Source: Mesodorylaimus sp. YZB2_4 | Lineage: Eukaryota > Nematoda > Enoplea > Dorylaimida > Dorylaimidae | Assembly: GCA_030248295.1 (NCBI GenBank) | Contig: JASANH010001409.1 | Location: 124,001 to 188,000 of the forward strand | Direction: 5' to 3' | Length of the DNA stretch: 64,000 nucleotides | Part shown: positions 5,174-60,545 of the stretch, piece after piece | Layout of the letters: each line of letters opens with the position of its first letter | Numbering within the stretch: the stretch's first letter is position 1 | Notes under the pieces: generated by a model | Told to the model about the DNA's origin: nothing | What the model saw: only the letters and a program-made list of their open reading frames with translations | Databases searched by the model: none | Translations under genes and position numbers: made by a program

Positions 5174-8100
5174 CTACTTGATCACAGCACGAGTCAGCTG
5201 CATCGTAAGCTAAAAGAAAAATTAATTTTAATCTTACTCAAAACTAAAAATTTCTTACCTGTTTCATCTCATCCAACTGGCACGACAGTTCTTGCACTTG
5301 CTTCATGCTCTGGGCCAGTGATGCCTGCACTTGACGCATTTCGCTTTGCTCACCATCGTTTTGCTCCATCGACAACGACATGGCGTGCATTCTAGGAAAC
5401 CAGTCCAGGTTCTTTTCCTGAAATTAAGAAGTCACAATGCTCGTTTTCGCGCTTCTGTTCCTGTTTTTTGACACATCATCAAGCGCTTGCAGGGCACTCG
5501 AGAGTGAAGGGACTCATAACACGAGAATTGACACCTCTGGCCGCGAGTCGAACACCCGATTGTAACTGCGCGCCTGCGCGAGAGGCAGACGCCTAACCCA
5601 TAACGCCAGGAGCCCAGTTTCTTGCGTCATCGATCGAATACCCGTCGAAGTAGCTAGATCGATCAAACCGAGTCCCCAAAGCAGTGCACACACACTTCCA
5701 CTTACCTGAATCATCTCATGCACATAACTTTCGGGTCCAGTGAACTCCGTCGACTTTTTCACTTTTAATAAAACGTAGAAATACAGGTAGTACCACATAT
5801 TGTGCTCGAACGTCACGTGCTCCTCGAATGTCAATGATTTGTTATCGAATCGCGCTCTTTCCAAACCTGCAAAAAATGAACTAATACTCCACATTTTAAC
5901 GAAACTGAAAACCCCTTACCGCAAATGAAGCATGTATTTCTCAAAATGTCGTCTTTTTGTTGCTTCTCGTTACGCAAATCGGCGAACGTGTCGATAATGA
6001 CACCAAAAATTACATTCAGGACGATAATGATCAATATGATGAAGAAAGCCAAGTCGTAGATAACACGAGCCACGAACTTGGGCTCGTACGGATGCACTTT
6101 CCGAAGCACTTCTCCGATCCCACCGCCCGACATGAATCCATCTCGAATCGAGGTCAGAATGCACATGCGCAGTGTCTCGCACGATTTTACTTTTGCTAAA
6201 ATCAAATCCCTTCTTGATAAAACCACCCACAAAAATATCCAAAACCGAGTCCTTACTCGTCTCAGTGACCTCTTGACAACTGTAATTGTCCCCTGCCGTC
6301 GGACATTCTCCATCGGCGCTGCACGTCCCTTCGGACGTCGATGCAGACTTGACTGACAGAGCATCCCAGACGGAAGACGAGGGCGTCGATCCCGACGACT
6401 CCAATGGTTCAACTTCCAAAAGGAAATCGCAGCGGAAATACAAATAGCCCACAATTGAGAACAAATAAACCAGAATAACAGCCAATACCGCAGTCAAAAC
6501 AATTGATCGCCAATTCCGTGTGACCGATCGAATCACGTTGCGTAGAGTTTCTTCGCACAAAACAAAGTCCAGGAGCTAAAAAATTATGAGTCTTGCTGCC
6601 GCTCATCTCAAAGTCAGTTATTTTAAATAACTGAAACTCAAAAATCAACAGAAACTTCACTTACCAAAACTGAATAGAAAAATTCATGTACGAATAAACC
6701 GGCAGCACAGAATGCGAAAAAAGTCAAGTGATACAAAAGCTCGCTATTCAGTACAACGCCCTTCAATGTCGGATCGAGGAACCCGCGGTTGCCCATCACA
6801 CTAACCACTTGTACCACTTTGTTAACAATCTGAAATGAGAGACTCGTCACTCCCGCCTAGAATCCAATCTGAACTCACTCACCTGCACAATACCCAATAC
6901 AATCAGACTGGCATTGACGCCGAGCGATATCAAGCTCCTCAAAGTTATGGTACTGCACCAAATGGCAATGGCACTCCACGTTGGCGCCGTATAAGTGAAC
7001 AAGGCCGTCGTCACCACCGACACCCACAATGCCACGTTGGCCGAGGTGTCGTTAACTGAAAACACCATTCTTACACCCCACTCATGAAAAATTGCACACG
7101 ACTTACACAAATCGAGGAGACTATTCGGTTTACTCGGCGGATAAAATATAGCTACGATGAAATTGATCAAAAATGCCAACACGACCGATATTTGTGTCCA
7201 TAATTTGACCCGTTGACTACACCAATACAACCACTTTCGAGCTGAAAATCTCAACGGGTCATCCTCCCAGCTACCACCCCGCTACTAGGAATCTGTATAT
7301 GCAAACACGCCCCAGTCAAAGCCATCCATCTATTGTTAATGATTGGCTGTTGGGTAGGACCAATCAGAACGAGGGACGTGGCTCCGCCTCCTACCCACTA
7401 GCCAATCAGAAGCAATAGAAAGTTGGCTATGGCTTCGACTAGGGCGTGTTAGCATTCCTACTACTCTCGCAATGTCAACTTACCTCGTAACTTTTCTTGC
7501 CAAACCATTTCGCGATACATAGTATCAAACTGGGCGAAAAATCCAGGTACTTTCGAGCCTTGTACATCTCGATCCGTCGTCAAGAAAACACGTTCTTTCG
7601 TTTCGGCGCTCAAATACTCGCATATTTGAGGCACGGGAAAAACGATAGCCTCAAGTGATCGATCGCTTCTAACGATCTAAAATTATCGACCCCATGACGC
7701 TAGCGCACGCTGGTGTAGTCAACACTCCTCACCTCGATTTCAGCCGTGTGCGCTTGATAGAAGGCCAACGCTTCGGCGAATGCTGGCGTCTCTGAGGAAG
7801 ATGGTTTGATCGAATTCCTCAAATCAGCGTTGTGACGAGCCAACTGATGAGCTAATATGAAAATATTGTGCCCGACTTCTTGAGGCGACGCGTTGTCCTC
7901 GTCTTCGCTATCACTTGAACGAGGACCAAATATCACATCGGGTGCACTGATTTCGGGCACGTGTACACGATTGTACGCCAGGCACGCTTCTCTCACCTGA
8001 AACAATCGACGAGTCCATACTTGGCACGAGCAACGTTCACACACAAAATCATGTATGGGCGCGGGCGGAGGTGCAGAAAGCTTTCTCCCCTTGGTTTGTG

Positions 8101-38701: not shown

Positions 38702-41700
38702 CTAATCAAAGCGCCACCCAATCTCGTGCTGTCTATCAAGGATCACATTCAAGTCCGTCAAAGCCAGCACATGGTTTGTGGGGTCATAGGTGATGTGGGT
38801 CCAGTAGAGAGGCACCCCATCCAACCACACCTGACTGGGCTTGGTCATCATGCCAAAGATGGTCACCGTGTTCAAGCCTTGTCCTATTCTATAACCAGCT
38901 TGCGTGACCCTGATCCTGAGTCCTCCTCTAGATGCGTCTTTACACACTTCGAAGTGCAAGTAGGTGTGCGGCTGGTCCACAGACTCCCCGTCGTCCCAGT
39001 ACAGCCCTCCCCAGGCTTCCTCCTTCTCGTCCAATCCCACGTACAGACCGAACGGAGTCCTCCTGGATCGTGCTGTGGTGGCATCGGGACTCTGGTAGGG
39101 GATGACGGTCCCACCACGGATGTACAGCCCGATGCACTCCAGGGGCATGTCCACTCGGATGGTCCTGGCCTGACTAGGAGTGGCCACTTCCTCGTGCGAA
39201 TGCCACAGACTGTACCATCTACCCTTGGGAAAGTAGGCTGGTCTGGTCAGGGCACCTTGGGTGATCACTGGCACTACCATCAATCCGTCGCCCCACAGGA
39301 ACTGGTCGTCAACTGTTCGGGCACCCACTTCGTTCGGGTAGTCGAAGAAGACGGGTCTGGCCACGGGGGTCCCGTTCACGTGGGCCTTGTGCAGCAGAGT
39401 GTACAAGTAGGGCAGCAGCATGTACCTGGCCATCAGGGCGTCTCGAATGGCTTTGGTCGCATTGGCTGACCAAGCGGCGGGGTCCTGGTCGCGTTTGCTG
39501 CTTATGTCATTATGGTTCCTCGAGAACGGATAGAAGGCTCCCATCAGGTGCCACCGCAAGCACAATTCTTCCGTGGCTTCGTCGTGAAAACCACAAATGT
39601 CTGCTCCCATCAACGGCATCCCGTACATGCCGAATTCGAGTATGGTCACGATAGAGTACTTGAGTTGGGGCCAGTTACTCGCGTTGTCCCCCGTCCAGTG
39701 ATTGGTGTACTTGCCTGAGCCAGCAAATGTTGACCGACTCAAAATGAATGGGCGCTTGCCGGGGTAAATGCCCTGAAAGGAGGGGACTGCATTCGAGGCT
39801 GTCTAACAGTACCACTGTAATGGTGCCATGTACAGGCTCAGCATTTGCCATAAAGGAAAAACACTAGCCCTGAGCAGGAATCGAACCTGGTACGCGAGTG
39901 CAACAAACATAAATATCCCTGCTTGTCTTCCTTTGGCAGTTGCATTAGTGCAGTCAATCTTGTAAGTTTTGAGTCTACAGGTTCATAAACGCGAGCGCAT
40001 AATCATCACATTAGCCCCGGGGGAATCGAACTCGCCCCTGGGGTGCCAGTCCAGTGTACTTACAGGTGTGGCTGGATGGAGTACCTCTCTACTGGACCCA
40101 CATCTCCTATGACCTAACAAACCATGTGCTGACCTTGACCCTGGACATCACACGGCGACAAGTACCTATTTCGTTTCACTGTAATCTAAGGGGCCGCTTT
40201 CTGTCTAGGTTGTTTCTAGTTGTGTGAAAACTGCAGACTGCTCTTTCCGGCTACGTCCTCGTGTCAAGGCTAGAGCGAGGCCGCGATGACCAGCATAGCA
40301 ATCACATGACTAGCGCACTGCCATCCCATGGTTCTGAAGCTCGACCACTGTACATGCATGTTTTGGTTGACCGTGTGCAATCAGAACTCACCTTCAACGC
40401 CTTATAAGTGCACTCTGCTTCCATATAAGCAAAGAGGTTATGCAGCTCGTAGTGCTTTCCAGCAAAGTGGTCAGCGTCCATGCACAAGGTCATTTGGTTG
40501 ATGTTAGCATAGATGAGAGGGTTGTAGGGCGGCTTAGTGTGCTTGTTGTCAGCACATCCTGTCAACGATCCATCCACGAAATTAGACGGTTCGTTCATAT
40601 CGATCCAGATGCCATCAAAATCGATATCCTGCTGATCGTGGAAATCAGCCAGACACTTGGTCCACCAGGCGGGTGTGGCGGGGTGGCTGAAATCGACAAA
40701 GAACGTCTCTCCCGGCCACACCCGTCCCTCCAATGGCTTGCCAGTCCGATTGTCCATGACGAAGAGTTTGAGTTGGAGGGCCTCGTTGAGGGGAGGGTAC
40801 CGTATGGAGGGGCGGGATGCCAGAGCGGGATCGATAATCAATACTAATCGCATGTCGTATTCGTCGTGCAATTTGCGCACAAACCCGGTGAGGTTGCGGA
40901 AGGCCACTGAATCGTAGGTGAAGTCCATTCTGTTGTAGAAGTAGTCCAGGTCTATGACCTGCGTGTCGACTGGGATACCCGCCCGTCGGTTCCGATCGAG
41001 GACCTCTTCCAAGTGCGTCAAGTTGTTATAGCCCCATCGAGATAGCTGAAATCCCAACGCCCAATAAGGGGGCATCTGGGGCCGACCAATAATACTCGTG
41101 TACTGACGAATCACATCGTCCGGACTCGGGCCTGAGAAGATGAAGAAATCGATGGCGCCACCGATCGATCGCCAAGTGATCACACCCCCGCTGGGATTAG
41201 ACGGGTCTGGTTGCAGAGCCACATTGATGGCGTGCGTGTTCAGGAAGAAGACGCCGTGCGCGTTGCCCTGATTGTCGTCGATGCACAGGTAGAATGGGTG
41301 CACACCTGCGTGCAAGTACCCGTCTAGTGCTTCAGGCACCAATGCAAAGTGAGACTGGGAGGACTGACCAGAGTTTCTGCACACCATAAAAATCCAGTAT
41401 TCAACTACCAGTACGTCCAGGCCTAGCGTGTTAGGCGTCTGCCTCTCAAGGTGGGTGCTCGCTTACAGGGGAGGGTTCAACTCCCGGCCAGGTAAAAGAT
41501 TACTGTCAATCTACAGTATGTGCTCCTTAGCCCTCGAGTGAGCTGTAGAGAGCCTGGCTATGGAGAAAGTATGACATGGCATGAACTACGTCTCCCAACA
41601 GCTTGAGGGTGGGGCAAATGGTCCAGATGCTAGATCTATCGACTGTATGCCTGCAGCTCGGCACTGTAGTGATTCCAAAGCGCTCCTAGCCTTACCAAAC

Positions 41701-42434
41701 AGATTCATCTCCGGGTCACCGATGGCGTGGTCCCTCGTGAACAGTCCCCACCTTCGATACTCGAAATCGTGCTTAAGGCTGCTGTGCGTGCTCTCGCCCA
41801 AACCATACACGAATTGAGTGGGCACCCTCATCGACCACTGGATGTATTGCTCAGCGAATGTGAATCCAGGAATCCGCCTCGAGTCCACTAGCCTCGTGCC
41901 CGTCTTCTTCCGGACAATGGCGAACCCGAACGGACTCTTCTCCACCAGCACCCTCACCAGCGGATCCCCCTGCTGCCCTCCTCGCTCTCTCTTCACATTC
42001 TGTCTCCAATGGGGCCTCACGGCTGATCTGGTCACTTGGTTCTTATCGACCACGTGCACGTGCACAATCTCCTTTGTCAGCAGGTCAATCCTGACAGTGG
42101 CCTTTTTGAAGTCACCCCCAAACAAACTGGGTGTTGCTCGCCGTTTCAACTTGGCCACAAACGCATCCTGATCGGTCTCGGTCCAAGTCATTCTTTCCTT
42201 AGTGGCCTCGTATCCGGCCATCAGCGACGGCTCATTTGCGTGATCGAATTCGCACCAAGGTGCACGAGGCGCAGTTTTGGGGACCCAACGGCAGCCACGA
42301 TCGAGACAACGATCTTGGGTGGCATTGAAATCAGGATGGCAATCAATGGAAACCGAGGGGGTGGCCGTGTCTGGGTTCACGAATGCCATCTGACACACGC
42401 CAACGAGGGTGATTAGGAAGCCAGGTCTCGCCAT
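38702..42434 (-). CDS. GAA: Lysosomal-type acid alpha-glucosidase (GH31), three exons
   Basis: Exons are 41696-42434, 40392-41305 and 38702-39772, giving 2,724 nt and 907 aa. The ATG at 42434 opens a signal peptide (MARPGFLITLVGVCQM). A P-type trefoil domain with six Cys lies near residues 30-65. The GH31 core has MPPYWALGFQLSRWGY, the nucleophile Asp near 482 in WIDMNEPSNF, and the acid/base Asp near 580 in HWTGDN. The C-terminal beta domains end HEIGWRFD. It hydrolyses alpha-1,4 glucosyl bonds of glycogen and maltose, most likely in lysosomes or secreted. Exon 2 is taken to begin at GVHPFYL, because that acceptor gives correct phase and homology, although the open frame extends about 80 bases upstream. 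Intron 39773-40391 holds an inverted fragment of the gene's own last exon. Confidence 0.95.
40064..40190 (+). pseudogene. Inverted partial copy of the alpha-glucosidase last exon
   Basis: On the plus strand this reads VWLDGVPLYWTHISYD then LTNHVLTLTLDITRRQ. The host gene's C-terminus on minus reads VWLDGVPLYWTHITYD then PTNHVLALTDLNVILDRQ. The copy starts right after TACAG, in the position of a splice acceptor, and soon diverges (QVPISFHCNLRGR). It lies inside the host's second intron in opposite orientation. It is best read as a relic of an inverted duplication or of a neighbouring paralogue's final exon. Confidence 0.85.
41416..41588 (+). mobile_element. tRNA-derived SINE copy 7
   Basis: It reads caggcctagcgtgttaggcg, tctgcctctcaaggtgggtg and gagggttcaactcccggcc. 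The body has ctccttagccctcgagtgag, then cctggctatggagaaagtat and gacatggcatg. It lies in the alpha-glucosidase first intron (41306-41695), opposite to the gene. Confidence 0.78.
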
Positions 42435-42952
42435 TGCCAAATAAGGGTAGCCAATTCGAACTCGACTGGCGCAAGTGGCAGCACCCGATACTCAGACCGT
42501 GCTCTCTGCAGTGACAGTTGGTGTCTGCAACACTAACCATCAGTCCGCGTCAACTCCAAACCATCTGATGGCCCGAGGATCCCCCAATCTAGCTATCAGT
42601 CCCACGCGAGCTGCCATTCACTACCGATCTTCGCCCCTTGAACATTCATACGGTGGAGATAACATCCCGGACCGACCCTATGCTTACTAGTATATGAAAG
42701 CGGAAGGGGGAATCAACAGATGCTAGTCCAGACACGAATGGCCTGCTGCAAAACATGTTATTCGCCCAGACAAGGAGCGAGATAAGCGGGTCGCCTTAGC
42801 AGCGTCGCCTAGCGCTCTGTGGTAGCGGACGAGGGGGGCTCCGCACGGCCCTCCTTTTCAGTTTCAGCAAGCAACAAGTCGCATGTTGCACGTAGTCCGC
42901 AAGACAGCAAGAATCCCATTCGATCACGTTGTCACATCACACGAAACTCGGC

Positions 42953-49147: not shown

Positions 49148-50012
49148 GGCTGCGAAATTGCTCCGTTACGAGTGACGGAGAAATGGATGGCAATAACAAC
49201 TGTATCACGCCAAGATGGCACAATATATTTGCTGCGATCTTAGTCGGAGACTAATAATCGCTCGAATCCCAAAGGTCAGATCAAAAATATCTTTCAATCG
49301 GAGCTCACTGAGGTTCCACGATTAAAGATTAGACAATGTCACAATAAAGGCAGCAACATTCAATCAGAAAATTAATTCCACAGCAAATAAAACACCACTA
49401 AATTTAAGTTCACTGCTGTAGAATGTTCTTGGTGCACAAAAAATTTTAGAACAGAGACGAGTTGGGAGCAAATGCCGCCAGCCGGTATCGCTCCAACAGT
49501 TTTGTAGGCAGCTGGCGCTGGGCGCTGGCCGTCGCACCCACTGCTACCACCCTATTGCCGTCAATTCAATATAAGCAGCTAACCTGAACATCGATAAGCC
49601 CGCCAAGTTTAAAAGCCACGTTGAGGAATACATGTAAGCTATTACAGCAGCCATTAAAATATTCTTTTGGATTTCACTGCGTGATCAATTAATTTACTGC
49701 TCGTTATAATTGCTAATCTCCATCATATCGGAAATCCCTGAATTCAGCCATCTATATCCTCGATAGTCCTCAAAGAGCAGTAATCTGAGATAAGTCGCAA
49801 ATGCCAACGCGAGTCCTTCGATCTCATATGTCCCCCATACGCGTCTAACGTGCAGTTTCCGCTTCTCTCTACTTGTAATCGATACCATACAGTCGGACTT
49901 TGGCCTGGTTCCATCGTCTAGCCATTTGGCCACCTGATGTCTGTTCCCCCAAGACACTTGCTAAGGTGTATTTGGATGCACGAACTGTGCGGTGGCGGCT
50001 ACTTTTCAAACC

Positions 50013-51341
50013 ATGACGGCCAACCGCCTCGAATCCGGTCCTTGTCGAGCGATTGTGGTGGCCGTGGGTCAGTTTAATATCCGAGACTGCCCTCCCAGTC
50101 CGTCTCTGATTCACACCCTCAGAACATGCCAGAACATCCAAGTTCGACTGGCCCATTATTACCTCCATCTTCTGCTCAGAGAGTATTATCAGCGTCACTA
50201 TTTGGGCAGCTCGTGCAGCAAAGACCCCTATTCCTCCTTCGCCCTAAAATTTTACGAAAATCGAACTGAGATGTTTGATGATTTGCAATCTGGTCGAGTC
50301 GACGTTTACCCGTTCGAAATTTTATACCCGAAGCGGACGCACCAGCTCTACTACGTCATGTCACCCCTTTTTATGACCAAATATAAGTTTTATATGAATG
50401 GCATAAGCGCACAGGAGACCTACTCGACGCCTCCTCCCTTCGCCTTCCTCTCATCGCCATTCACCAAGCCTGTCTGGTGCAGCTTAGCTGTGTCGGCCCT
50501 GCTGTGCTATCTCTTGTTTTCACTGATCCGCCACACCCATACGAGACGCATGCCACAGGTGGCCAGCCTCCATTCGGACCGTTTGGCTCAGATTCTGGTC
50601 CTGGTTCCGCTCTTCGCCTTGGCCGTGGCTTATTCGTCTCTGCTAAAAGCTCTGGTCCTCCAGCCGACCGTGGCCCAACTATTCACATCCCTGGCCGATC
50701 TAGCCAACCGAGTCCGAGTTGGCCAACTGAAGGTTGTGGTCGACAATAATTTTTCTCATCGATCGAAGTTGCTGACCAACTCCAAGACCAATCGATCAGC
50801 GGGCATGCAGTTGGTCTATAAGGGGGTGAAAAGGGCACCAAGCTCGCTGATAACGGCTGATAACATCTGCCACGTGTGTTCCCTGCTACAGGCGCCACAC
50901 AGGGACCACGTGTACCTCGGCTACGACTTTCTCCTGCTCACGTCCTGCCAGCACACCTGTTTCTGGAAGTATGCATTGACCGAGGACTCGGGTGAACTCG
51001 TTTCGTACTTGATTGGCAAAAAGGCCACGGCATGGACTCGTTTAGCCGACGTGTTGTCGCATGCTATTCCCAATTACAGGCAACTGGAAACGAGCAGAAA
51101 ATACAAGGCTTCTTGCGCCAAGAAAATCAAGACTAGCGCCGCTTTTATCGATTCGACTTCGTTGGGTATGGCCTTCTCCCTTTTAGGAGTCAGCTTGGGT
51201 GCGTCCGTTTTGGTTATGCTTATTGAAGTCATAAAGGCTCGTTTGGGCGATACAAAATGGCAAGCTGGCATGGTCGGGCCGCGGAGACGTTTTCAAGTTT
51301 CTACGGGTTCGTCTGGCGTGGAAATGATCGAAGCCACGTAG
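50013..51341 (+). CDS. Divergent ionotropic (glutamate-receptor-like) receptor, single exon
   Basis: About 442 aa from the ATG at 50013. The order matches an ionotropic receptor without an amino-terminal domain. A short S1 half-site has FDDLQSGRVDVYPFEI and YYVMSPLFMTKYKFYM, and a first membrane segment lies near residues 152-173. A pore-side hydrophobic segment (RLAQILVLVPLFALAVAY, about 190-212) is followed by SSLLKALVLQPTVAQLFTSL, in the place of the family's SYTANLAAFL. An S2 half-site and a last membrane segment near 386-410 complete it. The canonical SYTANLAAF is not kept and no signal peptide is evident, so a 5' exon may be missing. Arthropod and other protostome IR-type chemoreceptors have this size. 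Family assignment rests on topology and weak motifs. Confidence 0.6.
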   Translation: MTANRLESGPCRAIVVAVGQFNIRDCPPSPSLIHTLRTCQNIQVRLAHYYLHLLLREYYQRHYLGSSCSKDPYSSFALKFYENRTEMFDDLQSGRVDVYPFEILYPKRTHQLYYVMSPLFMTKYKFYMNGISAQETYSTPPPFAFLSSPFTKPVWCSLAVSALLCYLLFSLIRHTHTRRMPQVASLHSDRLAQILVLVPLFALAVAYSSLLKALVLQPTVAQLFTSLADLANRVRVGQLKVVVDNNFSHRSKLLTNSKTNRSAGMQLVYKGVKRAPSSLITADNICHVCSLLQAPHRDHVYLGYDFLLLTSCQHTCFWKYALTEDSGELVSYLIGKKATAWTRLADVLSHAIPNYRQLETSRKYKASCAKKIKTSAAFIDSTSLGMAFSLLGVSLGASVLVMLIEVIKARLGDTKWQAGMVGPRRRFQVSTGSSGVEMIEAT

Positions 51342-52402: not shown

Positions 52403-55400
52403 ATGGGCAGTGGCGGTATTTTCTACATTCCGGGCTATTACATCAAAGACCAATGCGTGCCCGCTTGGCAGGCCTCGCCCGGTGGCTACTATGTGCCTTG
52501 CCCTTGCAATACCAGCTGCTTATGCGAGTATTACCCAATGACCCCGGACGAAAAGGACTGCCTGGAACAACGCAAGTACTGGTGCTTCCTGCTCTCCTCT
52601 ATTATTACTTTCTCTTTCGCCATGTTCTCCGTGGTCAGCTGGAGAATCATCCGATTCTTCTTCGGCCCACCGCCGGCCATTGCGGGCGAGGGGGGAACCG
52701 AACTGGCTCCTGGTGGGGCGGCCCCTGGAGCCAGGGTACCATCTCCGTTGCCGCCGGCAGTTCAGCAACGCAACGCCCTCTCATCACCTGCTGGCAAGTT
52801 CTTCAAAAGTTCATCTTTGGAGAAGACTCCCATGCTGGCGAACTCGGCTGCAAAGAACATCCATGAGGCGTTGGACGCACGAGCGAGTAGCGACACAGAA
52901 GAGGGCGACAAGGAGGCCAAACGTGCCAAGAGCAATGGCCAGCTGGGATGGATGACCGAAGCCAGGGACTGGGCCGGCGAATTGATCTCTGGCCAAACGA
53001 TGACTGGTCGAATCCTGGTAAGTGCCCATTTGCGCCTCGAGCTGGTATCCGAGTCTGTATTTGTCTTTGCACCGTTTTGACTTCCGCTAGCAGTGCGGAG
53101 CATGTTATCTGCCATGCGCCTTTATCGATCGTGGTTGGCAAGGCAGAAGAGGCGGCTTAACGAGAGCTTGAAACTGAGGCTATACTAGGTGCCCGGCGTC
53201 GTTCCAAGAATAGAAGGGCTCATTTTCTGAGCTCGGACTGTTCCTAGTATTGAACAGGCGTAAAGATCGGGCTGCCGCCTCAGGCGTCAATAATAAATCA
53301 ACAAGGCATCCTCGGGGACCGCTCCATAAAAGTGAGCGCGCGTCGTGGCAACACCAAATCCTTTCGGCTTCTTTTCACGAACTTTTGTGTTCTCCTATTT
53401 TCTCCAACAACAATTTCTTTTTTCATTCGCCTTTTATGCACAGAAAATAGGACCGGTTCGCGTTTCATAGTTTGCTGCTTGTTCGTATCGATTCTCGAGT
53501 AGTGTAGTGCCCAAACACGGCTGCAGGCAGAGCGGGGTCTAATCCGCTAGAAGTACTTTAGTCCTGTGTAATTGCACATAAAGCCGCCTGGGCGCACATC
53601 ATCCGCCTCGCGATGCCCTTCAACGCGTGGACTAGTGGCTGGAAGGAAAGGAGAATTCTCCCAATTAATCACCTCATTTCTTAGCTTAAAAGACAGACGA
53701 GCTGTTTGCTGAGAGTGTGATAAGGCTCAGTGCCCATGTGATCGTATTGCTGAAGAGGACGCGAAGGGTGTTAATTAGCTTTGGCAGTCCAACCTAGTTG
53801 GGGACTCTACCTTTTTTGCCCCTAGCATCAGACGATAAAGTAGTCGCAGGCGGCCTGAATCCCAAGCTGGCCTGGGTGCTCGCCGGTACAGCACGGCAGT
53901 CCATGACACACGGTCACTCGATCCCGTCCGCATGCACGCTAGCTTTCGTTATTCCTGTCCTCACTTGGAAAAATCTTCATTTTCGAACTTTTCTATTCAG
54001 CACTCAATGGCGTTTCCAGAAGAGGAAATCGGGTTTCCCAGCCAGCCCTGCGCAAAACACACTAGCTATGCCATGTCGGTTAGGGACACTCGAATTGACT
54101 TTGCGCACGCGTTGTGTGCCCTTCGATCGGTTCTCGTGTTCGTCAACGTAATTGGAAGCCGGTGTGTTCGTGTGGCACAGAAAAAGGACACTGTCCAAAG
54201 CAATGAGGTCGGCAAGCAAACCTTCCAACTTCCCTTTCACTAAAACCACCAAAAGACACATTGCCACCTTTTTGTCCGTGATAACATTTTCGCTCGATCA
54301 ATGCACACTGGCCAATTACGTTGGCCCTTTTACAGCTCGTATCCACGCGAATGAGCTCGTGTCCGGATGGCACGCCAATCCGATTGATGACTCGTTGGTG
54401 CACGGAAACGAGTGAAAAGGTTTTTCGTGACTTTAAAGTCCATTGACCATAAAAATGCTGAACAAGGTGAACCTGAGTTAGGTTTGTTCAATGATAAAAC
54501 ACAGTGATAAGTGTGTTGTGGCCTGTTCCAGCGTAGGATCCTGCCGTGCTACTATACAGGCCGGCTCCTGCCGTGTACAGTAAGTCACTGTCCCGAACGA
54601 CGAGGCAACAGGGCAATAGCAAGAGGCGCATGCAGGGGTGTCCACAGTAGCTGCTGCTGGTTGCACTACCTCTTGCCCTCATTGTAAAGAGAACTCACGG
54701 TCAGCGGGATCTAACATCACTGGGTAGCCAGAACCCCTATCACGTAGTCCAATTGATCCAAGGTTTTTGAAAGACGCTGCCGTGCCAGCAGACTGACGTG
54801 TTGGAGGCTACTCTATGTACGGTATGCTATTCTATTCTTTGCTGTATAAAATGATCAATTGAGATGACAAACCAAAGCCGGGGCCAAATAAAAAGTAAAA
54901 TTGCATTTCAGGTGGTCCTCGTGTTTGGGTTGAGCATAGCGTCACTGATAATTTATTTCTATGACGCCTCGCAGTAAGCGATTTTGGATTTGAGGTGTGG
55001 ATCTGTACCTGCATGTATTTGCAGCCACAGTTTTCAAGTGGAGACGTGCGTGCCGTGGTCGAAGAGCCCTTCTCAACAAGTGGATTTGGCGTTCAATATA
55101 TTCTTCTTGGTCTACTTTTTCATAAGGGTGAGTCATCGAGGGCGGTTCCTAAATATGGAAACTTATCATATTTTGCTTCAGTTTATCGCAGCCACGGACA
55201 AAGTATGGTTTCTGTTGGAGACGTACAGTTTTATTGACTACTTCACGATACCTCCCTCCTTCATCGCCATATATTTGGGAAGGAACTGGCTGGGTAAGTT
55301 GTGCGTAGCATCTGGCTCTGTGCTTCACCTAGCATGGATAGATACCGATTTTCGAGTGGAGAGCACTGGTTCAGACCTCCTATCTGGTACCACTGGCACG

Positions 55401-58400
55401 TCAGTAGACGAGCATGATCAGCGGACTACAGTGGCCGTTTCCCGTATTAGGCCTTCGTTTCTTGCGCGCTCTGCGCCTGATGACGGTGCCGGATATTCTG
55501 ACTTACCTGAATATTCTAAAAACGAGTGGTAGCATTCGATTGGCTCAATTGGTCAGCATCTTCATAAGCGTCAGTTTAGCCGCGGCTGGCGTCATTCACT
55601 TGGTGAGTGTATCGGCTGGCCAGACATTCTTGATGGCTTGCATGCTGCTCATGGAAGCTGCGCATTTCTTGACTGGGCCGGCGGTTGGTTGCCTACTTGC
55701 TTGCCGACTGAATTTGGCCAGTGCATGCCTCCGTTGTCATGATTGGTGTCGGTGGTACATCGTAATCGACCCTCTCGGCTGCCAGACCTGATTGCGACCC
55801 TTAACTTCCCCGTTTCCTCCCACGTTGTGCCCGTGTCTGTGACGAGCATGAGTGCCACACTGTGTACCTACTATTTCGGTTCTTTTTTGCCTGCGCCTAC
55901 AGGTTTCCGTTGCCTGCGGGCTCTGCGCCTGATCACCATGCCAGATATACTGCAATACCTGAACATACTGTCAACGTCGAGGGCGATTCGACTGGCTCAG
56001 TTGCTAAGCATTTTCGTGTCCGTTTCCATGTGCGGAGCTGGCATCATACATTTGGTAAGCCCCGTTCACCCGAGCCTGCCACTTTTAATCTTTGCACCCA
56101 CGTTTTGTCACTTTGTTTTCTGCTACCGCCGCCGGCCCACACTTTTCTGTTTTGCTTTCCCCGCTTGGCTGCCCAGCAAAGGTTACCCCTCTTTGGTTAC
56201 CTTCATGAACGAACCTCGCCTGCGGGCTGCCTGAAGATTAGCCAGTGCGTGCATGGAAACAGGTGCACAGGACGTGCATGCAGTCAACAGCTCGCAGCAA
56301 GGTTGTCAAAGGAGTGGGCACTAATCATGCAGAACCCCATGATTTTGGTTCGGGTTTGTGATAGTAGTCAATGTTAGCAGAGCTCGGTTTCATTTTTCAA
56401 TGTGGAACGACCTGTTTCTGCTGCAGCTGGAGAACAGCGGCGACCCATGGCGCAACTTCGACAACCTACGTCGCATCACTTATTGGGAGTGCGTCTACTT
56501 CCTTGTGGTCACCATGGGCACGGTCGGGTATGGAGACATTTACTGTACGACCGCTTTGGGACGTCTGTTTATGGTGTTCTTTATTTTGGGTGGTCTGGTA
56601 AGTTTTGGACCGTGGACGATCCAGTGCGTATCGAATCTCCAGTGCCACGCTGCCCCACAACTCACCTCGCCTAACCTTGTTTTCAGGCAATGTTTGCCAG
56701 TTATGTACCAGAAATTGTGGACCTAATTGGATCCAGGCACAAATATGGGGGCGAGTACCGTGCAGAACATGGGAAAAGGTACACGCCCCACCCCCAATCG
56801 CATTTGAATGTTAGGCACCCCCTTTTTCAGGCACATTGTGGTCTGTGGCTACATCACTTACGAATCAGTCAGCCACTTCCTGCAAGACTTTCTTCACGAG
56901 GACCGCGAAGACTTTGATGTTCAAGTTATTTTTCTGCACAGGTATGATGTCAAGGCCACAATACTGCTAAGCTATAAGACTGGCTTGCCATCAGGGTTCC
57001 ACCCGATTTGGAACTGGAAGGATTGCTGAAGCGTCACTTCACCAAAGTCGAATTCTTCCAAGGCACAGTCATGGACTCGATTGACTTGTCTCGTGTCAAG
57101 GTGCGCAGTGCGCCTGTTCTCATCACTGGCCGAGTATCAAGCTACTTTGTCTCTTTAAGGTCGAACAAGCCGATGCATGTTTGGTCCTAGCGAACAAATA
57201 TTCAACCGATCCCGATGCCGAGGATGCAGCGAATATAATGCGAGTCATTTCCATCAAAAACTATTCGTCCGACATTCGCATTATTGTTCAACTTATGCAA
57301 TACCACAACAAAGCCTATCTACTCAATATTCCAAGTTGGGACTGGAGGCAAGGCGACGATGTCGTGTGTCTGGCCGAACTCAAGCTTGGCATTATTGCTC
57401 AAAGTTGTCTGTCGCCCGGTTTCTCAACCATGATGGCCAACCTGTTCGCTATGAGGTCTTTCAAGACAGTGAGTATGAACTGAACTTACAGGTTGGATTG
57501 TGTCAATGTGTGCATTGTTCAGCTCAATCTCAGTTCTTGCCGAATCTGAAAACTTGGGGGGGGCACTGTTATGAAGAAGAGGCAGAAGAGGCAAGCATGA
57601 CAGTGAAAGCTCCAGGGCATCTCTCTTTTCAGGACCTAAACACCCCGACTTGGCTCAACGATTACTTACGCGGTAAGACCTCTTCCCTCCTTCCTCGTTC
57701 CTCTGCGGCATGTGCAGAATGGATGTTTTCACTTTAAGGTGCTGGTATGGAAATCTATACTGAAACCCTATCGCACAGCTTTATCGGAATGCCATTTCCG
57801 GAAGCAGCCGAGTGAGTCTGTGTGCCCTTACTCATCTGGCACCATATGGTTTCCTGTTTTCCCTCAGATTCTTGTATGCTCGCCTGGGCATTCTCATGAT
57901 CGGATTAGAAATACGAGATGAACAAAAACGCGAATGCAGCATCGTCATTAATCCAGGACCCAATGTGACAATTACTATGCACTCGCAAGGTTTCTTCATC
58001 GCTCAGTCTGCCGATGAAGTGAAACGCGCTTATTTTTATTGCAAAACATGCCACGCTAATGTCAAGGACTTGACATTGATTAAAAAATGCAAATGCAAAA
58101 ATGGTATGTTTTCGAATCTCTTAAATTCCTTCTTCTAATTTTGCCTTTTCTAGTTACCTTATTTCGGAAAGGCATCCGAAATATTATCATGGCCAATCGC
58201 GCAGCTAAGATCCTGTGTCCGCAACAGACCCTCGTGCCCGAGATGGCCTTGGCCGATGATGACAACGATAGTCAGAGTGATACGCACTCGTACGGCGGAC
58301 GCAGGGGTGCGAGGTCCCCAGACAGAAAGAAATCCGAAAAGGGCAGGTGAGCTAATCAGATGGATCATTGGTTGATCGTATTCGACACGATGGTTTGAGG

Positions 58401-60545
58401 ACGTGAATCGGTCTTCTGCATCTGCGCCATAGGATGACTTTTTTTTTCAACATAATGCTCCACACTCACGACTAGGATATCTTCAGTATTTCTTGCATGC
58501 ACTTGTGACACACTTTTTATTTCATTGCACAGCCCTCGTCGTCATCGTCATCGTTCGTCGTCGGATGAGAGATCGGATCGTCAGGGCGATATTCGCAACA
58601 CACTCTACCGTTCTAGTAGTTTTCGACGAGCCTATAAACAACAGAAACTCTTATCGTATGTTGGAAACTTTTGAAAAACCACGAGATATGCTTTTTGCTC
58701 TTGCTAAAGTAGACTGCTATTTTGAACTAGCCTTTGCATCCCTGTTATGCTTACTGCAATACCTTCTGGTTCGAAGCACGCTTTTAAGGAGTCGACTTTT
58801 GTTTCAGTAACACGAACAGCTTCACGACGGCTGACAAACGCCAGAAGAGCCATTGGAAATCTTATGAACATCAAGAAATGAAGTACGATTCAACTGGGAT
58901 GTTCCACTGGTGTCCAGCCCGACCCATCGAGGATGTGCTTATGGTAATTTATGGCTTCCCATCATATTTCGAACTTAATTTAACTTTTATACCTGAATAG
59001 GATCGATCGCAAGCAGCCATGACAGTCTTGAATGGGCACGTGGTCATGTGCTTGTTCGCTGACAAGGACAGTCCTTTGATTGGTCTGAGGAATTTCATCA
59101 TGCCCTTGCGTGCATCGAATTTTCACTATCACGAGTTGAAGCATGTGGTAATCGTGGGCGATGTGGAGTATTTGCGCAGGGAATGGAAGACCATCCATAA
59201 CTTGCCGAAAGTATCCATCCTTATGGTAAGAGAGGTCGGCATGGACTCGGATGTTGGCTGTGTCCCAAGCTTCTGCTCTGTATTCGATGATAGCTCAATG
59301 CCCTCAAGAGAGGGGACTTACCTCAAAGCTCAACAGCAGTGCAACCAGTTTCTGAATTCACTCGCAAGCGCTGACTGATCGTGAGTGCGATTTGCTCGTT
59401 CGCAGAATGTATCCCCAGCCCATACAAAATGTCATCCGCCCAAGCCATTTTCCAATGCCAATCTTCATTTAGGGCAATCCTCTCAGCCGCGCTGACCTGC
59501 GCGCAGTGAACATCAACTTCTGCGACATGTGCGTGATTTTATCCGCTCGAATTCCTAATCTGCACGAAGATCCGACACTGGCTGACAAGGAGGCCATCTT
59601 GGCTTCATTGAATATCAAAGCCATGCAGTTCCACGACTCGCTCAGTTTTCGACCATTGGCCGAAGAAGGATTTTCTCCCCTCGGATCCCCGATCACGATG
59701 TTGAAGAGGGCGGCCAAGGTGGGCACTGAAGTGCCATTACTCACGGAACTGGTCAACGACTCAAATGTGCAGTTTTTGGATCAAGACGACGACGACGATC
59801 CGGATACAGAGCTGTATCTGACGTTGCCATTCGCTTGCGGCCAAGCATTCGCCATTAGCGTTTTGGATTCTTTGATGAGTTCGGTGAGTGATTGCAGAGG
59901 CTTTGGTGTCCGGGAGCTATACCAACCTGATCGCAACAACTCTTCAGACCTATTTCAACGACTCAGCGTTGACCCTAATTCGCACCTTGGTCACTGGCGG
60001 CGCCACGCCCGAGTTGGAGTTAATACTGGCCGAAGGGGCTGGTCTGCGCGGCGGCTACTCCACGCCCGATTTATTATCCAAACGCGATCGATGCCGCATA
60101 GCTCAATATCCCTTGATGCATGGACCTTTTTGCGGAATCAGCGTAAGTCTCTTCGTTCCCCGAAGAAGCCAAAACATGGAACAGGTTTTCAGGGTGGCGC
60201 GACTTTCGGCCATTTGTTTCGGAGGTCCCTCCATGAACAAGGCGTCCTGTGCATCGGTCTGTATAGACTACATGAAGATCAACCAGTCGGTTCGGACAAA
60301 CGATTTGTAATCACCTCCCCTCCTTCCGATATGATCCTGCAAGACTTGGATAAGGTAGGCCAGCTACGTCTGCCTTTCCTTCTCCCTGGGCTCCTTTGCT
60401 TATGTTTTTACTCCAAAAATCAAACGCTAGATCGCACTAAAATCACGTGATTCCTCTTTCTTTCTAGATCTTTGTCTTGGAACCGTTCGATCACGGTCTT
60501 CAGTACGAACCGACTCGATATCGTGGCAATAATTTGAGTGACTAA
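52403..60545 (+). CDS. slo: BK (Slo1) calcium- and voltage-gated potassium channel, 21 exons per transcript
   Basis: About 1,234 aa (3,705 nt with one S4 exon). Exons: 52403-53017, 54912-54973, 55025-55127, 55182-55293, then 55451-55602 or 55903-56054, 56427-56597, 56687-56778, 56831-56941, 56995-57100, 57160-57468, 57633-57672, 57739-57811, 57868-58103, 58154-58346, 58533-58655, 58808-58943, 59001-59225, 59473-59883, 59948-60142, 60193-60354, 60468-60545. S0 is at about 60-80, followed by an S0-S1 linker of about 120 residues rich in Pro/Gly then charged residues. Also seen: [18 protein letters not shown], filter TVGYGD, RCK1 ([13 protein letters not shown]), a CKTCH heme-type CxxCH motif, RCK2 ([10 protein letters not shown]), and the calcium bowl DQDDDDDPD. 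Fly and worm Slo are the same family. Splice choice at S4 is the main oddity. Confidence 0.96.
53018..54911. other. First intron of the BK channel
   Basis: A 1.9-kb intron between the S0-coding exon and the S1-coding exon. Short open frames at about 53.9-54.4 kb have no recognised motif. Confidence 0.5.
55451..55602 (+). other. BK exon 5A, S4-S5 variant A
   Basis: It encodes FRALRL-type S4: [18 protein letters not shown], then [20 protein letters not shown] and AAAGVIHL. The length is 152 nt. It enters after one base of a Gly codon and leaves at phase 0. Acceptor ATTAG, donor GTGAGT. Confidence 0.93.
55903..56054 (+). other. BK exon 5B, S4-S5 variant B
   Basis: It encodes [18 protein letters not shown], then [20 protein letters not shown] and MCGAGIIHL. 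It has the same 152-nt length and phases as exon 5A, acceptor CTACAG, donor GTAAGC. The residues are homologous over the whole 51-residue stretch. Confidence 0.93.

Follow-up and report, generated by a model that had tools for sequence, protein, structure and literature searches.

The slo-1 gene (BK channel, KCa1.1) of the nematode Mesodorylaimus sp. YZB2_4 carries two adjacent homologous exons, A and B, each of which encodes the channel from S4 through the S4-S5 linker to the middle of S5. Very probably these are tandem duplicates that serve as mutually exclusive alternatives, and they may tune the coupling of the voltage sensor to the pore. The pair lies in the window, the whole 64,000-nt stretch of contig JASANH010001409.1 that was analyzed here. 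A sequence-only reading of the window had noticed it; that observation was right and is greatly strengthened by the paralogs. From the sequence we infer that both exons are expressed, that their splicing is exclusive and that the pair is functional. In BK channels, voltage and calcium act on the pore through a packed S4-S5-S6 interface, the working of which is still debated. A natural pair that swaps the S4-S5 segment while the gating arginines stay intact would be a ready-made coupling experiment.

The slo-1 gene of the window and its exon pair

The gene is on the + strand at about 52403 to 60545 of the window and spans the N terminus and S0, S1 to S6, RCK parts, the calcium bowl and the C terminus (Table 1). 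Its assignment to the BK channels, already made from the sequence, was borne out by a phmmer search of the PDB with the translation from S3 to the pore, in which the best matches were Slo1 proteins. The best solved relative was Drosophila Slo (7pxe), with E values of 3e-71 for the exon A form and 6e-67 for the exon B form. The top 22 rows by E-value for the A form, and likewise the top 22 for the B form, were BK/Slo1 chains, and no nematode channel was among the PDB matches listed for the two forms. Stretches that we take to be S0, the TVGYGD filter, the RCK domains and the calcium bowl are present in all five slo-1 genes found, that of the window included, and the AGELISGQ plus S0 stretch was matched in all five. 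Note that the first base of the first coding exon (52403) was set by the start of the open reading frame alone.

Table 1 Coding features of the window slo-1 gene (positions in the window)
Feature	Position	Strand	Boundaries and evidence
First coding exon found, N terminus and S0	52403..53017	+	ORF 52403-53080; donor gtaagt at 53018
S1 exon	54912..54973	+	protein match; acceptor tcag, donor gtaagc
S1-S2 coding exon, start approximate	55027..55127	+	tblastn match 55026-55127; donor gtgagt
Constitutive S3 exon, 112 nt	55182..55293	+	ends ...CTGG, then gtaagt, after base 1 of the shared Gly codon
Putative alternative exon A: S4, linker, first part of S5, 152 nt	55451..55602	+	acceptor ttag, donor gtgagt
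A-B intron, 300 nt	55603..55902	+	no similarity above shuffles to matching introns of three paralogs
Putative alternative exon B: S4, linker, first part of S5, 152 nt	55903..56054	+	acceptor acag, donor gtaagc
Constitutive pore exon: rest of S5, pore helix, TVGYGD filter, start of S6	56427..56597	+	
S6 and start of RCK1 exon, next after the pore exon	56687..56778	+	
Calcium-bowl coding stretch (presumed label)	59728..59883	+	
C-terminal coding stretch ahead of the stop	60468..60542	+	

Exons A and B were found where the sequence-only reading had placed them, equal in length and phase, each with AG before and GT after it, and with 300 nt between them. They are identical at 103 of 152 nucleotides and at 37 of 51 residues. 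Both are entered after base 1 of a Gly codon and left in phase 0. With A alone or B alone the frame stays open through the pore exon and the two exons that follow. When both are included in the window gene a stop is met at the 10th codon of B, and when both are skipped the frame shifts and a stop is met in the second exon past the pore exon. The same holds in all four genes that have the pair: double inclusion gives a stop in B at the 10th or 11th codon, 119-122 nt before the end of the exon, and skipping of both gives a frameshift and a stop. As double inclusion leads to a premature stop in each of the four genes, such mistakes are probably discarded. The frame penalizes double inclusion and skipping alike, which is less than the enforcement of an exclusive choice that had been claimed for it.

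The identity of the two exons exceeds that obtained by neutral simulation. When the same 49 differences were placed randomly in exon A (n = 5000), a stop was gained in 66% of the simulations. The mean identity was 22 of 51 residues and the maximum was 31; none of the 5000 reached the observed 37. Fold prediction of exon A alone gave a single long helix with a pTM of 0.40, which is uninformative.

Intron-intron pairing (docking/selector) was tried as the exon selector and gave no signal, with z between -1.07 and +2.04 in 12 duplex comparisons, in a simple test that short elements could escape. Comparison of the introns at three matching places in the four genes showed no similarity: in the 18 comparisons, 16-81 of 100 shuffles reached the observed score, the long C9 intron being represented by its last 1000 nt. 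Neither the pairing test nor the paralog intron comparison found a regulatory element in the introns.

Elsewhere in the window there is a tandem repeat at 1364-2084, which on the - strand reads as YCFHHLSIASITYLLLPSPI again and again. Other open frames lie at 5831-7254, 38702-42440 and 49992-51341. These we take to resemble the end of an inositol-trisphosphate or ryanodine receptor, a family-31 glycosidase and an ionotropic glutamate-type receptor, respectively.

Five slo-1 genes and the age of the duplication

When exon B was used to search the whole genome (145 Mb in 1067 contigs), ten matches were obtained, which represent nine exons in five genes. The genes are on the contigs referred to here as C71 (the window), C149, C9, C1 and C136. 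A sixth contig, C5, has a more distant channel gene without an S4 match. Four of the five slo-1 genes (C71, C149, C9 and C1) have the pair, always in the order A then B, and all eight exons are 152 nt long and in frame, with A-B introns of 196 to 300 nt. The hallmarks of mutually exclusive tandem-duplicate exons (adjacency, homology, equal length and phase, and splice sites) are therefore present in the window gene and in three paralogs, and a mutually exclusive mechanism is likely. Disabling mutations in one exon among relatives, which the sequence-only reading had named as evidence against the pair, were looked for in the paralogs, and none of the eight copies in the four genes is disabled. 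In the C1 gene a 59-nt GT-AG intron lies inside exon A, and the joined pieces form a normal exon A of 152 nt. As its partner B is whole, two small exons would there be chosen jointly against one.

The slo-1 gene of C136 has one S4-S5 exon only. Nothing credible as a remnant of exon B was found in its 2786-nt intron, where the best matches were a protein match with an E value of 0.006 on a low-complexity stretch and a DNA match of 13 nt at an E value of 0.014. This intron (77289-80074), in which exon B would be expected, contains a match to cuticle collagen on the other strand (78579-78701). The single S4 exon (L021:6137-6288) has Gly (in ALGL) for the gating-charge arginine R213, which is Arg in the eight other exons, and hence the C136 channel may sense voltage poorly.

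A second, separate tandem exon pair is found at the GAGMEMYTETLSH stretch in C149 and C1, and a single copy was found there in C71, C9 and C136. PMC4270693 describes slo-1 as a single-copy gene in nearly all animals and as a pair of genes in trichocephalid nematodes (Trichuris, Trichinella); five in this genome is therefore unusual. These five slo-1 genes bring gene duplication and exon duplication together in one animal. In the same assembly COX1, read with the invertebrate mitochondrial code, sits in a 488-kb contig (C73:253316-254668), and fragments of it are on many other contigs. These COX1 stretches are nuclear copies or misassembly. Domain searches of the assembly gave 133 matches to Col_cuticle_N and 27 to TTR-52, both nematode families, and an arthropod source, at which the PDB matches had hinted, was set aside on these grounds; Chitin_bind_4 gave 0 matches, which is no proof that the family is missing.

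The age of the duplication was addressed by a tree and AU tests of the nine S4-S5 exons of the five genes. A single duplication common to the four genes was the best tree together with the unconstrained one (AU p = 0.63), and a separate duplication in every gene was rejected (AU p = 0.0014). A common origin accounts for the exons better than a duplication per gene does. Support for the B clade was moderate (63%). For the window gene alone, a pair of independent origin was not rejected (AU p = 0.17), and A and B of the window gene are closer to each other at the synonymous level than are the exons of the other pairs (identical:synonymous codons 19:18 versus 33:85, Fisher p = 0.016), so that shared ancestry of the window pair is unproven. 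Gene conversion could also produce this synonymous closeness.

Both exons are kept under selection, as differences among the paralogs are mostly synonymous and none of the eight copies is broken, with B the somewhat less constrained of the two. Between C149 and C1, the codons that differ number 29 synonymous and 3 nonsynonymous in exon A, 28 and 7 in exon B, and 60 and 2 in the flanking exons (125 codons). Codon counts are given in place of dN/dS values because most pairs of genes are saturated at synonymous sites. Between paralogs, change is somewhat faster in exon B than in exon A; for example, C71 and C1 differ by 17 nonsynonymous codons in B versus 8 in A.

Residue differences and their possible effects on the channel

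Residue positions are given in human numbering, by which the exon runs from Gly205 to Leu255. Of these 51 residues, 14 differ between A and B of the window gene, and the list in the sequence-only reading was incomplete, leaving out positions 206, 222, 239, 243 and 247. R207, R210 and R213 are identical in all eight paired exons. Only two positions, both in S5, tell A and B apart in every one of the four genes: 249 (Ala in A, Gly in B) and 252 (Val in A, Ile, Phe or Leu in B). To call the exons two alternative voltage sensors was therefore too strong. No difference in S4 charge between the alternatives was found. The extra Arg ascribed to exon B exists (G231R), but it is accompanied by K228S; the two cancel, and one positive charge is moved while none is added. 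The differences at 222, 231 and 239 are confined to the window pair or recur in part in the other genes. In S6, the window gene has Glu and Asp at the positions of human E321 and E324, residues whose identity we in part assume and in part take from PMC12416887.

By the helix limits given in the accessible text of PMC12416887, Gly205-Leu255 comprises S4, the linker and the first half of S5. Structural studies, as far as the available parts of them go, attribute the gating charge to R210 and R213 (PMC12416887, PMC12218146); an older review, likewise available in part, attributes it to R213 alone (PMC4319557). The same two structural studies describe the sensor as coupled to the pore by S4-S5-S6 packing and mutations in the linker from N225 to K228 as having little effect (PMC12416887/PMC12218146). 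According to PMC12416887, the S5 face that includes position 239 touches S6, and positions 231 and 234 are near E321 and E324 of S6. Position 222, which is Thr in A and Gln in B, matches by alignment range T211 of the Aplysia channel, to which PMC12218146 assigns the role of a hinge against helix alphaB of the gating ring. Given that the S4 arginines are unchanged, altered sensor-pore coupling would be expected rather than altered gating charge.

We propose that splicing takes either A or B in each transcript, which would give two subunits that differ only in the segment from S4 to the middle of S5. The gating charge would be equal in both forms. The swap would alter S4-S5-S6 packing and would thereby tune the transfer of voltage-sensor movement to the pore; as the calcium gating ring touches the S4-S5 segment, transfer of its movement to the pore would be tuned too. 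V239L and G231R would be the first candidate swaps in the window gene; T222Q falls at the hinge residue. With the pair in four of the five slo-1 genes found, the animal probably has channels of differently tuned gating at its disposal. The proposed function draws on the structure papers and on the Drosophila Cav2 case considered below.

Other readings of the pair were weighed against this one. Exon B might be mainly a poison exon, such that the stop upon double inclusion, which falls in B in all four genes, lowers channel dose and the B-only protein is of little weight. In keeping with this, an alternative near S4 in Trichuris suis is known, in the portion of the report available, only from truncated forms (PMC4270693). 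However, a poison exon would need neither homology over 51 residues nor the S4 arginines nor an intact B-only frame, all of which the four B exons keep, and the B copies change mostly synonymously. We regard this reading as improbable. It is very improbable that the exons represent a functionless duplication, recent or repeated, each gene having duplicated separately and one copy being silent and decaying. Such a history would accommodate the window pair, for which an origin of its own was not rejected (AU p = 0.173) and in which A and B have diverged less at synonymous sites than in the other pairs. It conflicts with the rejection of a separate origin in all genes (p = 0.0014), with the eight copies, all of 152 nt and none disabled, and with the neutral simulations, 0 of 5000 of which attained the observed identity.

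Finally, the exons may be alternative but exert their chief effect on trafficking, subunit mixing or partner binding rather than on gating. The class-wide differences are limited to two conservative S5 positions, and the Drosophila cac IS4 pair alters localization besides activation voltage (PMC11828482, from the part available). Nevertheless, the S4-linker-S5 segment lies at the sensor-pore interface described in PMC12416887, and a chief effect outside gating seems to us rather unlikely. We favor tuning of sensor-to-pore coupling by mutually exclusive exons.

Known alternative exons and a possible older switch

The available part of one study describes the IS4A/IS4B pair of the Drosophila Cav2 channel cacophony, mutually exclusive exons of equal length (99 bp, with 13 of 33 residues different) in S4, the swap of which shifts activation voltage and localization; a pair of this type is stated there to be absent from vertebrate Cav2 (PMC11828482). 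The likeness to the slo-1 pair is in the exclusive, equal-length exons in S4. The cacophony pair differs in that the protein is a calcium channel, only S4 of repeat I is affected and the exon length is a multiple of three (PMC11828482). In contrast, the slo-1 pair belongs to a BK channel, has a length of 152 nt that is not a multiple of three and affects these positions in all four subunits. It covers S4, the linker and half of S5 and leaves the S4 arginines unchanged.

Tandem alternative exons of Slo1 have been reported in fly, worm and human KCNMA1, with three events in Drosophila slo (PMC9741552). The accessible portions of other papers describe alternative exons of human KCNMA1 (PMC6025963), three alternative splice sites in C. 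elegans slo-1 (PMC4039745) and exon 14 alternatives in RCK1 of filarial slo-1 (PMC6779273). These pairs share with the present one the channel family and tandem homologous exons, and in some the use is tissue- or sex-specific. They differ in place, since the places stated in those portions are cytosolic (RCK1 in filariae, the cytosolic face for Drosophila exon 2a/2b). The second pair of C149 and C1, at the GAGMEMYTETLSH stretch, resembles the known cytosolic Slo1 site, whereas the S4-S5 pair is at another. An S4-S5 exon pair in Slo1 appeared in no title or abstract of the literature searched, which was a partial sample with thin coverage of subscription journals. The switch is of a familiar kind, and its site at S4-S5 is putatively new.

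Trichuris suis slo-1.1 has, in the part of the report available, alternative exons beside retained introns in the S4 region (PMC4270693). The likeness is in a nematode slo-1, S4-region alternatives and the presence of more than one slo-1 gene; the difference is that one of the T. suis alternatives was seen solely in truncated transcripts that retain an intron (PMC4270693). Compared by description only, the T. suis exons are possibly the same pair.

The S3-S4 alternative exons of sodium and calcium channels belong to other families and lie mostly outside the S4-linker-S5 segment, a placement that we partly presume. They resemble the slo-1 pair in that splicing in the voltage sensor tunes gating (for para, see the available part of PMC9741552).

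The split between A (Ala249/Val252) and B (Gly249) leads us to suggest, as a tentative and somewhat doubtful extension, that the S4-S5 switch predates the multiplication of slo-1, and perhaps the main nematode split, and that other forms were lost in some lineages, leaving one. Gly249/Leu252 is presumed for SLO-1 of C. elegans and Ala249 for Drosophila and human Slo1. If the suggestion is true, the switch is old, C. elegans kept only the B form and BK gating has long been tuned by swaps at the sensor-pore interface. With the presumed C. elegans exon (51 residues) added to the set, separate pairs per gene gave an AU p of 0.0498. The C. elegans exon itself grouped with B, with AU p = 0.65 for a place within B, 0.05 within A and 0.08 outside both.
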